A DNA stretch of 64,000 nucleotides from Plicaturopsis crispa FD-325 SS-3 (taxonomy: Eukaryota > Basidiomycota > Agaricomycetes > Amylocorticiales > Amylocorticiaceae), in assembly GCA_000827205.1 (NCBI GenBank), contig KN832555.1, forward strand, positions 1,944,784-2,008,783, written 5' to 3'. The notes under the pieces are model-generated. The model ran no database searches and had not been told where the DNA came from. It saw only the letters and a program-made list of their open reading frames with translations. Each line of letters begins with the position of its first letter. Position 1 is the first letter of the stretch. Shown piece by piece: positions 4,199 to 38,395 of this stretch. The translations under genes and the position numbers were made by a program.

Positions 4199-4282
4199 CG
4201 AATATGACTAGTTACAAGAAGAACGTACAGATTCACAGGAACCCCCCACAAAAGATCTTGATCTTGCGAGCATCTGCATAAC

Positions 4283-6985
4283 ATGTCTATCGAATCCAAT
4301 GATGGGAAGACGAAGGAGCGGGACTTGTCCGTCACGGTCAGTCCTACGGCTGGGCTTGGTGACAATGCCTATCGCCCGGACGTAGATGTCTCCGGCGTCG
4401 ATGAGCGGAAACTCTTACGCAAAATCGACATACATGTCATCCCATGGCTCGCCTTGTTGTATCTACTCAACTTCTTGGACAGAGGCAGTATCGGAAATGC
4501 GAAGGTGAGCGATCACAATACGTCACGATGAAGCTATGACTTCTGCATTCTGCTTACCGCCTGCTTCGCTCTACAGCTATACGGAATGGAAACATACCTG
4601 CATATCACAGACAAGCAGTACTTGATTGCATTGACCATCTTTTTCTTCCCATATTCTCTATTTGAGGTATGTTTACTCTTGTCAGATTGAAAGCCTTGTG
4701 ATACTGAAGATGACTAGCCGGCAAGTAATGTCGTATTGAAGAGAATTCGGCCAGGAATATGGCTTTCCACTATGATGCTACTGTGGGGGATTGTCATGGT
4801 ACTTTCAAGAGAAGACCGTTTACTTTCAGCTTACTCATGTCATGATCTTCGTAGACATTGCACGGCGTCGCTGAAAATTATAGCGGCTTGATAGGTAAAC
4901 TCGCTGCCTCTCCCGATATGCTCTCAGAAAGATTGACCGACTTCATATATAGCTCTGCGCTTTTTCCTGGGCCTCGCAGAGTCAGGTAATTGATCCACTT
5001 CGTCAGTGCTCAAATGTGCCTTCATCTTATATTTGTCACGAAATATAGGGCTGTATCCTGGCATTGTGTTCTATATATCCTGGTAGGTGGTTCGCATGCG
5101 AATCGAAGGAGTCCGTGCTAACAATGCCGCTCGTCATTGTCAGCTGGTATCGACGGTCGGAGGTGAATAATTTTCGCCGCCATGGCACCACTGAAGAAGG
5201 CTGAAAGAAATTTCTGGTCAGCTCGGAACCCGAGTTGCTTTGTTCTTTTCTTCGGCTTCACTGGCTGGTGCATTTAGTAAGTTTTGCTCCATCGCCTTGT
5301 TGGGGACAACTCAACGACACTCCTTATAGGTGGCCTACTTGCCGCTGGCATCCAGAATATGCATGGCATAGGCGGAAAGCCTGGATGGGCCTGGATATTC
5401 ATCCTCGAGGGCTTGTTCACCGTCCTTGCGGCCTGTGTGTCGTATTTTGTGATCGCAGATTTTCCGATTGAAGCCAAATTTCTATCGGAGGCAGAACGTG
5501 CGTTTGTTTTGTTGGTACTGAACTTCGAGTGCCACTAACGCGGGTGCACATATGAAGGCGTGTTTGTCATCAGACGCCTTCAGGATGATTTGCAGTATAG
5601 CGCAGCCGGAGAGAAGTTCAAATTTGAATACGTATGGCAAAGTCTTGCGGACTGGAAGACATGGATTGCTAGTAAGAACGATCGTCTCATGCTACATCAT
5701 CGGGGAGCTGACGGTATGATTACCAGTGGGAATCTACATGGGCTTGTATGTGGTCTTGGTTTCCACACGCCCCTGCGCCGCTGAATGTACCGTAGTGATG
5801 GCCCTCTGTTTGCATTCTCTCTTTTTACGCCGACGATTATCAATCAGGTATGTCTTCCTGAATTATCACCGCGGAGTATCTGGCCATCTAACGGGCTGAT
5901 ATTTTTGCGGGGTAGCTGGGTCTGTGGTGTATCTATACCTGCACCTTGGGTGTCACTTATCTTGTGCTACTAATAGGTTTCCAAGCTACTGCCGCGAATC
6001 TTCTCTCTGTCCCCGTGTACGCCTGGAGTGCCATAATGACACTTGTTATTGGGGTATTAGGCGATCGCTTTGGACACCGTGGATACATCAATCTGTGGGT
6101 CGTCCATACCCCTCTCGCGGTTTCTCGCTGACGCCGTTTTCGTTTTGAAGTGCCCTGTTTGGCAGCGGGCTAGTGGGATATATCATCCTGATTGCTTCCA
6201 CGAATGGGCCACTGTCATACTTCGCCACCTTCCTAGCTGCATCGTACGTCAAATCTATCTTCCCATAGGATTTGTACTCTTGGGCTTACTGTGTACAAGT
6301 GCAATCTATCCTACAATCCGTGAGACGCCCCGCTTTTATTATTCACCGCTGATACTTACTCTAATATTGACTCTAGCAAACTCTGTGTAAGTGTTGTATA
6401 CTCTTCGTGAACATCTACCGGCAGTGCACTTACTTTACTGCGATAAATTAGGGCGTGGGTAGCATCTAACGTCGAAGGGTGCGTTCTTGCTCGTCATTGT
6501 CCCTGGAACTAAAACTCATTGAGATTTCTTTCTAGTTCCTACAAGCGCAGTGTTACTCTTGCCATGGCTATCGGATTGTGCGTCACCGTGCCTACTACCT
6601 AACTCACAATATCTGACCGCTTGAACTAGTGGGAATCTCAACGGCGCAGTCACATCAAACGTTGTGCGTATCTATGCTTCAGAGCCAAAGAAATTAATGC
6701 TGCAGGTACTGACTGCGAGCGTAGTATCGTGCAGTGGACAAGCCGTGGTACAGGCTCGGGCATGGAATTGTGCTGGCGTACATAGCCATCGGCTGGCTCT
6801 GCTCGCTCCTGTTCCTTGTTCTCTTGAAACGAGAGAACGCACGGAAGGCGCGTGGGGATCGGGACGAGGTCATCTCGGGTGTAGAGAACAAACGCGCCCA
6901 CGAACGAAACGGGCAGTTCGCCAGCGTAGAGGACGCAAGAAGGGAGCGAGGAGACAGGTGGAGCGGTTTCCAGTATACCCTCTGA
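4283..6985 (+). CDS. MFS transporter, DAL5/allantoate-type anion:cation symporter
   Basis: Plasma-membrane permease of the anion:cation symporter group, whose fungal members carry allantoate, nicotinate, pantothenate and related organic anions; the substrate here is unknown. The N-terminus ends in a conserved segment before helix 1 (KIDIHVIPWLALLYLLNFLDRG). The spliced frame then gives family motifs GLYPGIVFYIS, WYRRSE followed by LGTRVALFFSSASLAGAF, GWAWIFILEG, WIAMGIYMGFDGPLFAF and DRFGHRGY. The C-terminus is a charged cytoplasmic tail (KRENARKARGDRDEV). The gene is cut by about ten or more short introns; one small exon holds only the MGIYMGF segment. No frameshift or in-frame stop is needed in the model, so the gene looks intact. 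Confidence 0.9.
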
Positions 6986-26300: not shown

Positions 26301-27830
26301 ATGGCCATCGAGAAAGAACCTGGAAAGAAGGGCGTCAACTGGTCCAACATCGCCGTCGGTGAGCGCGTCTGAGGCATGTGAAACCGTCATGAGCTGAGCA
26401 TTTCATTGTAGGTGCGATTATGAACATGGTACGCGCAGCAGCTCTGTATGAGCAGAGAGGAAACTAACGAAATGCAATAATGGCGTCCTACATATGAATA
26501 GTTTGTGAGTCACAGTGTGTGGTATGCGCTGTATAGTCGCTGACGACTGTCTTCACGCGTCCAGGAGGCAAGTTCGCTACGTGTTATGTCCGCTACCCTC
26601 GACCAGCCCAGTAACCCGATATGCTAGGTTACTTCTCTTGGCCAGCCCTTGGAAGTCCTCAAGACACAGATGGCAGCCAACCGGTCACAAACGATGGCAC
26701 AGGCCGCGAAGACTATCTGGTCGCGCGGTGGTGTCGCCGGTTTCTACCAGGGTCTTATTCCTTGGGTAAGCTACTATAAGCTACAAGTGTAAACACTAAT
26801 GCTCATGCACCTGGCACAGGCATGGATTGAAGGCTCTACGAAGGGTGGTGTACTCCTGTTTACCGCCTCCGAAGTTGAGACTGCAACCATTGGTTTGGGT
26901 GTAAATCCCGCTGCTGCTGGCCTTCTTGGTGGAATGTCTGGTGGTATTGCACAGGCTTATGCTACTATGGGTAAGCTTCTAATGTCTGCTCTTGCTACGT
27001 GATGCATACGATTCTATTCGAATGACGGCTAGTATCCGTACTATGTTGCCTTCAATTAACCATCTTTCGGGACTGATTTTTTCCTAAACGAACCACACCG
27101 TCAACGAGCTGACCCTGTGCGACAGGTTTCACGACTTGCATGAAGACTGCTGAAATTACGCGTCACAAGGTGGCAGCCGCCGGTGTCAAGCCTCCCTCGA
27201 CATGGGCCGTCTTCGCCGACATCTACCGTCGCGAAGGTCTTGCTGGTGTCAACAAGGGTGTCAACGCCGTCGCTGTGCGTCAGTGCACCAACTGGGGATC
27301 TCGGTATGTCTCGTGTTGCACTTTCACTGCATCACACCGTTGTTGATAAAGTACGTAGTATCGGTTTGGCACGGTTAGCCGAGACCGGCATACGGAAAGT
27401 CAGAGGTAAAGGCGACAACGACCCTCTGGGCGCGTTAGACAAGATTGCATCCTCCACTATTGGTGGTGCTTTGGCCACTTGGAATCAGCCTATCGAAGTC
27501 GTCCGTGTTGAGGTCGGTGTCCACTGACATATACCCTCTACGCGAATGCTGATGATGTTCGCAGATGCAATCTATGGCCAAGGGTGCAGCCAACGCCAAC
27601 CGACCCGCCAAGTTGACGATCATGAACACTTTGGCCTTCATCTACAAAGAGAACGGTATCAAGGGTCTCTACCGTGGTGTAACGCCACGCATAGGCCTCG
27701 GGATTTGGCAGACGATTTGCATGGTCTCCTTTGCAGACTACGTAAAAATATGGTGCGCCACAATATTTTTGACCGTTATGTTGTTGCTTATGTTTCGTTG
27801 TACTACAGGGTAAAGGGGAAACAGGCATAG
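26301..27830 (+). CDS. YHM2: Mitochondrial citrate/2-oxoglutarate carrier YHM2
   Basis: Inner-membrane carrier that exchanges citrate and 2-oxoglutarate and supports NADPH shuttling in yeast. Family stretches run the full length: [78 protein letters not shown] and [17 protein letters not shown]. My ten-exon model is 26301-26358, 26412-26428, 26502-26504 (TTT), 26565-26567 (GAG), 26628-26765, 26820-26970, 27126-27303, 27359-27512, 27565-27752 and 27809-27830. It sums to 912 nt (303 aa), close to the family length. The two 3-nt exons supply the Phe and Glu of the conserved MFEVTSLGQP junction. The intron after GAG starts GCAAGT, a GC-AG intron with textbook consensus. Confidence 0.93.
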
Positions 27831-37397: not shown

Positions 37398-38395
37398 ATT
37401 ACAGTTTCTTTTCGTCGGCATCCTTCGCTTCGCGTTCCTTTTTGGCCGCGGCGAGCCGCATTTTCTTGACCTTGTAATTGAAGAAGGTCTAGAGGGGGCG
37501 CAATTGTGAGTCTATGATAGGTGAAGGCATGGAAGAGCTTACGCCAACTGTAAATTGAACAGAGTTGAAGAAGGGAACCCAAAACTATAAGAGGCGGTCA
37601 GCGGAGCTAAGATAGATTGATTTAAGCCAGACTCACTTGAACCGGTACAAAGGATTGTGCAAAAACCATTGCTGCGGGGGATATAACCCACGACACCTAT
37701 ACGGTAAATGCAATTTAGACAGTGTTCTGTGCATTTGACGAGGAAAGGCATACTCTGATAACAGGGAAAAACCCGGCTTTGACTGTCCGCTCAATCTCTT
37801 CGAATGATTTAGCACCGTTGATCACAGCCATAGAGGCCAAGTACTGCGAAGAAGATCAACTTTGATAAGGGAGGACAGTATGTCGATGTTGCACCCACAA
37901 CTATACAAGATGAGAAGTCAGGAGTGAACTGGATAGTTAGGCGCGTTTAACCCTTACCTGCGGTCGTGATCGGCGTGACGAGTAAGCTATTAGCGACAAT
38001 CTGCGCTATCCGTGCGCCTGGTCCTGTCCGTCCTGCAAACGCTCGTTGGAGCCTTCCGACGAGAACATGGCTGAGAGGGGCTGATATAAAGAAGCCATAC
38101 AGGGCCATCTTGAACGCCTTCAAGTCGATGTTGGCCCGCGCCAGGACGTGCAGGATGAACGGAGCATCCTTTGCTGGCCGCTTCGCCGGGACTCCGGCAA
38201 GAGTTGACCCAAGTATTTCCTGGAGAAACGAGAGCACGCCTGGTGGGTATTAGGAAATGCAAAGCGCTGGCGACCGGTGAGGTACTGCGCACCTGATGTA
38301 GCTGACTTGGTTCGCAGAGGATGCTCGACGAGTTGTACTAGGTATTTGGCCAACAAGGGGTTTGTCTGCGTTGCGACTGGTACTGCAGCGGCCAT
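37398..38395 (-). CDS. MPV17/PMP22-family membrane protein
   Basis: Small integral membrane protein of the Mpv17/PMP22 family (SYM1, PXMP2, Mpv17), found in the mitochondrial inner membrane or peroxisome. It begins MAAAVPVATQTNPLLAKYLVQLVEHPLRTK. The spliced frame shows the family hallmarks DLKAFKMALYGFFISAPLSH, a helix ending RIAQIVANSLLVTPITTA, and the C-terminal WVPFFNSVQFTVG with a basic tail (KKMRLAAAKKEREAKDADEKK). At least five introns, and the stop lies at 37398-37400. The relatively long inserts between helices resemble fungal peroxisomal members more than SYM1, but localisation is inference. Confidence 0.88.

Follow-up and report, generated by a model that had tools for sequence, protein, structure and literature searches.

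How small can the exons of a fungal gene become? The Fusarium CYP621A P450 genes possess an exon of a single nucleotide, which was detected through misfitting exon phases and is backed by RNA reads in two species, according to the excerpts of that study drawn on here (PMC12940212). Among basidiomycetes, the available portions of two further reports describe exons down to 5 bp in bglA genes of basidiomycete yeasts, where GC-AG borders lie beside microexons (PMC9142197), and small introns together with exons as short as 6 bp in the P450s of Phanerochaete chrysosporium (PMC1184071). Consecutive microexons of 3, 18 and 22 bp are given for human RPS24 in the corresponding excerpt (PMC11162997), and the excerpted plant survey lists 1-nt exons, an adjacent pair of 5 and 12 nt in rice, and many microexons that annotation had missed (PMC8831610). 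Exons of only a few nucleotides are considered too short to be defined across their width; in the relevant excerpt, intron definition with PRP-40 bridging across the intron has been proposed, and very short flanking introns ease the dependence on that bridging (PMC8378409).

The gene described here lies at 26301-27830 on the + strand of the window, by which we mean the whole 64-kb stretch of Plicaturopsis crispa DNA that was analysed. It encodes a YHM2-like protein with three Mito_carr repeats (PF00153, 8.9e-29), as in mitochondrial carriers of the SLC25 family. In our model the gene consists of 10 exons and 9 introns, the exons sum to 912 nt, or 303 codons plus a stop, and the translation is free of internal stops (Table 1). 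Two of the exons, TTT and GAG, are very probably real, adjacent, in-frame coding exons of 3 nt each, as judged from the sequence, and the mature mRNA would include both. Three phase-0 introns thereby separate Met25, Phe26, Glu27 and Val28. TTT is preceded by AG and followed by GT, and GAG is preceded by AG and followed by GC, so that each is a short internal exon with usable splice sites and falls well within the limit of 30 nt by which we define a microexon. A preliminary description of this DNA had proposed two consecutive 3-nt exons followed by a GC-AG intron, and that arrangement scores best when splice signals, the lengths of the introns and the reading frame are considered together; direct reading bears out its intron lengths of 73, 60 and 60 nt, its 17-nt exon and its GC donor, and its total of 912 nt and 303 codons was reproduced.

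Table 1. Exons of the YHM2-like carrier gene and its first four introns (positions in the window)
Feature	Position	Strand	Length and description	Basis
Exon 1	26301-26358	+	58 nt	direct reading, gene finder
Intron 1, GT-AG	26359-26411	+	53 nt	direct reading
Exon 2, microexon	26412-26428	+	17 nt; finishes Gly20, codes AIMNM	gene finder
Intron 2, GTACGC...ATAG	26429-26501	+	73 nt; branch-like CTAAC 34 nt before end	
Exon 3, TTT	26502-26504	+	3 nt, phase 0, Phe26	gene finder, path scoring
Intron 3, GTGAGT...CCAG	26505-26564	+	60 nt; branch-like CTGAC 21 nt before end	
Exon 4, GAG	26565-26567	+	3 nt, phase 0, Glu27	gene finder, path scoring
Intron 4, GC-AG (GAG/GCAAGT...CTAG)	26568-26627	+	60 nt; lowest score in gene	
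Exon 5	26628-26765	+	138 nt	direct reading, gene finder
Exon 6	26820-26970	+	151 nt	gene finder
Exon 7	27126-27303	+	178 nt	gene finder
Exon 8	27359-27512	+	154 nt	gene finder
Exon 9	27565-27752	+	188 nt	gene finder
Exon 10 including stop TAG	27809-27830	+	22 nt	gene finder

The gene model was obtained with a gene finder of our own writing that combines models of 3-periodic coding sequence, donors, acceptors, branch sites and intron length, and uses no homology. Its training set was the window plus twenty 10-kb stretches of this genome, 264 kb altogether, in which it predicts 76 gene models, and it returned the exact 10-exon structure de novo. The same 10 exons were returned when the YHM2-like gene was excluded from the models of donors, acceptors, branch sites, intron length and coding sequence, a run based on 71 genes and 421 introns in which the background model still contained the gene. 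The intron penalties were chosen by hand, and the sensitivity of the result to the intron prior and to the length model was examined. A first version of the program, whose intron penalty was weak, placed too many introns throughout the window, and its output was set aside as evidence.

The junction itself was analysed by enumerating every path between fixed borders at 26428 and 26627, allowing no intron shorter than 42 nt and up to two internal exons, each no longer than 60 nt. Inclusion of both TTT and GAG is the best of the 79 in-frame, stop-free paths (-4.94 nats), followed by GAG only (-9.14 nats); TTT only reaches -10.14 nats and a single 199-nt intron -12.44 nats. Only five of the 79 paths insert two residues, and FE ranks first among them, with the runner-up at -14.25 nats; one residue followed by Glu is inserted by just two, FE at -4.94 and CE at -18.63 nats. 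As a null, 1500 first-order Markov shuffles of the junction stretch were scored, keeping its first 6 and last 8 bases. The gain of the real sequence (7.49 nats) was reached by four shuffles, and two 3-nt exons were never the best path (0 of 1500). Some internal exon appeared in the best path of 386 of the 1500 shuffles, so the mere fit of an exon would mean little.

The 10-exon call depends on the settings of the program and on the acceptance of GC donors. De novo, it survives at the intron prior that was used and at priors raised by 1 or 2 nats, but a prior lowered by 1 nat or more abolishes it; the YHM2-like model is then reduced to 4 exons, and from -3 nats downwards no exons are predicted. 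With a flat intron-length model a 274-nt intron reaching to 26702 is chosen instead, and with a flat length model and a prior raised by 3 nats both microexons return while the start of exon 5 moves to 26703. The start at 26703 was rejected, as it would delete 12 residues with the carrier signature, PX[DE]XX[KR]; the start of exon 5 given in Table 1 fits this motif. Disallowing GC donors costs the model both microexons and 75 nt at the start of exon 5.

Intron 4 is the weakest intron of the model. It is a GC-AG intron whose GCAAGT donor, directly after GAG, has the strong flanking consensus AG/GCAAGT and whose acceptor reads CTAG, but against the 421 introns its donor falls at the 6.4th percentile and its total score at the 0.5th. 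A search of it for a CTNAY branch site found none; the best match, CCGAT, scores negatively, and direct reading locates nearby a GTAAC that is one base off the branch consensus. GC-AG introns are a small class in the sample, five of 430 with intron 4 included. The donor of intron 4 is similar to those of the other GC introns (4 of the 421), three of which have AG just before the donor and three of which carry GCAAGT.

The protein family offers a further view of the junction. Against S. cerevisiae Yhm2, in what we take to be its sequence, the predicted protein is 62% identical over its full length, and FE aligns to SE ungapped. Conservation of FE at the junction is putative, and is based on this yeast comparison and on the preliminary description. 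Among the solved carriers, the GTP/GDP carrier is matched by the FE form only (19.7 bits), of the FE, F-only and residue-less forms compared; the scores of the same three forms against UCP1 are 17.6, 17.8 and 15.8 bits, and against UCP2 18.1, 20 and 18.6 bits. The Pfam Mito_carr score is 103.4 bits with F only, 100.4 with E only, 99.5 with FE and 99.1 with neither. Mito_carr therefore does not support inclusion of both residues, and comparison of the isoforms with Pfam and PDB families is not decisive for inclusion. The plasmid, viral-contig and genome-contig collections, which by design contain no fungal genomes, returned no relative, and peptide strings do not occur in the texts of the papers searched.

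A DNA search with the whole gene, in which the best candidates across the 33.2-Mb genome were scored, returned no second copy of the gene and no copies of introns 2-4 elsewhere; the one other match is confined to a stretch of intron 6. This unusually long intron (26971-27125) is 79% identical over 92 columns, at 27000-27082, to C8:805019-805109 (L010), which likewise lies between predicted exons, and the shared stretch is perhaps a small element residing in introns. An origin of introns 2-4 by tandem duplication was considered and discarded, their mutual local scores (11-13) being as for other intron pairs.

Could the junction be read in another way? If any one of introns 2-4 were retained, translation would end early (codon 38, 39 or 47). 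Omission of TTT, GAG or both (6 nt) keeps the frame, so no stop would flag an error of skipping. The claim that the conserved junction can be rebuilt only with both triplets was for this reason too strong: skips of either or both stay in frame, and Pfam tolerates them. If 26429-26627 were excised whole, as a single 199-nt intron, the protein would be made without Phe26 and Glu27. In favour of this reading, the frame is preserved, the Pfam score hardly changes (99.1 against 99.5 bits), and a 155-nt intron is present in the same gene. Against it, the path is 7.5 nats worse than that with both exons, it loses two residues where the yeast protein presumably has SE, and an equal or greater length is found in only three of 438 predicted introns, 394 of which measure 50-75 nt; we consider it very unlikely. 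The use of one microexon, GAG or TTT alone, giving a protein one residue shorter, is marginally less likely still. GAG alone is the second-best path, and the F-only protein is the form preferred by Pfam and by the UCP2 structure (20 bits, against 18.1 for FE), but these paths lie 4.2 (GAG) or 5.2 (TTT) nats below that with both exons and would require an intron 136 or 123 nt long.

Alternative splicing of the two exons, yielding carriers with or without F and/or E, overlaps with constitutive inclusion and is improbable rather than remote. Frame-neutral exons of 3 nt would evade nonsense-mediated decay, either or both triplets can be removed in frame, the weak intron 4 would favour some skipping, and a regulated microexon is known in Trichoderma from the excerpted report (PMC11121469). 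A change in helix length would, however, probably harm the carrier. The remaining explanation is a stwintron or recursive splicing, in which TTT and GAG would be traces of internal introns within a larger intron. Splice sites three bases apart do look like such layouts, but every splice pair here gives an intron of ordinary length, TTT and GAG read in frame as FE, and nesting is unnecessary; we regard this as the least probable reading, with hardly any weight. Constitutive splicing of TTT and GAG, with a GC-AG intron after GAG and three introns within six coding bases, is probable. If it is correct, this is the tightest run of single-codon exons known to us, and ordered removal of the neighbouring introns would be required.

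How might such exons be spliced? Introns in gene models of 450 or more coding bases are short (n = 430, median 56 nt, 5-95% range 50-116 nt), and intron definition of the YHM2-like microexons would fit both this median and the literature. Introns 2-4 would each be short enough for recognition as a unit, with U1 at the donor and BBP/U2AF at the branch site and acceptor. U1 pairing spans about three exon bases. Factors flanking TTT or GAG would collide if this footprint is taken at face value, which makes ordered removal likely; for a 3-nt exon to carry factor sets on both sides at once is probably impossible. Stepwise removal would then be probable, with intron 3 leaving either before the other two or only once introns 2 and 4 are gone. 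Among introns 2-4 the total score is highest for intron 3 (65th percentile) and lowest for intron 4, which suggests that intron 3 leaves early and intron 4 late; the weak GC-AG intron may be the last to be removed. Both triplets would be expected to be mostly constitutive, and Phe26 and Glu27 would probably sit in the first membrane helix, just before PX[DE]XX[KR]. Matches to the FF domain, a domain type found in PRP40, number five in this genome, at two places (C10 and C1).

Exons of a few nucleotides do not appear to be rare in the genome as sampled. The 264-kb sample contains 367 predicted internal exons, of which 44 are no longer than 30 nt and eight no longer than 9 nt (1, 2, 3, 3, 3, 4, 6 and 6 nt), two of the eight being TTT and GAG of the YHM2-like gene. 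The 1-nt exon (in a P450, L030), the third 3-nt exon and the 6-nt exon of L026 look doubtful as models. The other 6-nt exon (L017, - strand 4256-4261; G000:C2:2504256-2504261) codes for SL within the segment WDTAGQERYKSLAPMYYR of a Rab5-like protein. The two residues lie within QERYKSLAPMYYR and restore the SL of solved Rab5 chains, ungapped against Rab5B (2hei), and when the exon is omitted the Pfam Ras score drops from 200 to 189.8 bits. Supported by homology, this predicted exon can serve as a working control in the same genome. A 2-nt exon, TT, is predicted on the - strand of the window at 37899-37900, where it completes a Val codon between introns of 57 and 55 nt. Its gene is Mpv17/PMP22-like (PF04117, 1.7e-14), with the domain match at residues 140-196 and the exon outside it. 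The path with this exon scores 5.74 nats against -6.28 nats for the best single-intron path, about 12 nats better under a model trained with the gene included, and skipping the exon shifts the frame into stops. The preliminary description had called the YHM2-like pair remarkable; the pair itself is upheld, whereas its uniqueness is tempered by the 6-nt Rab5-like and 2-nt Mpv17-like exons. Elsewhere in the window, a predicted 20-exon MFS transporter model on the + strand includes a 10-nt exon (6377-6386) that adjoins a 20-nt exon. A 4-nt exon is predicted in L030 (- strand 2312-2315), where the frame is kept between two introns of 61 nt; its host protein appears coiled-coil-like from a reading of its sequence.

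Where genome annotation imposes a minimum exon length or disallows GC donors, residues at a junction of this kind would be dropped or wrongly placed. The YHM2-like junction could also be viewed as a compact natural test of how the spliceosome copes with splice sites 3 bases apart twice running, and of whether neighbouring introns have to leave in order. In the part of the open-access literature that was covered, no fungal gene with two 3-nt exons side by side came to light. Plant microexons, in the excerpted survey, are backed by RNA-seq or RT-PCR and their pair measures 5 and 12 nt, whereas the YHM2-like pair is predicted (PMC8831610). RPS24, as excerpted, is mammalian and alternatively spliced and has just one 3-bp exon (PMC11162997). 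The excerpted CYP621A study offers the nearest parallel, an ultra-short fungal exon that lies between short introns and codes within a conserved motif; unlike the single 1-nt exon of those genes, the YHM2-like exons form a frame-neutral pair of 3+3 nt with one GC-AG intron, and are predicted from DNA (PMC12940212). In the P. chrysosporium P450s the shortest exon is 6 bp and the available part of the account describes no adjacent pair (PMC1184071), and the smallest exon of bglA is 5 bp, with no single-codon pair in the part of the report drawn on (PMC9142197). Tiny fungal exons and GC-AG introns beside microexons were thus already known, and the predicted TTT and GAG pair of the YHM2-like carrier would be an extreme new case among them.
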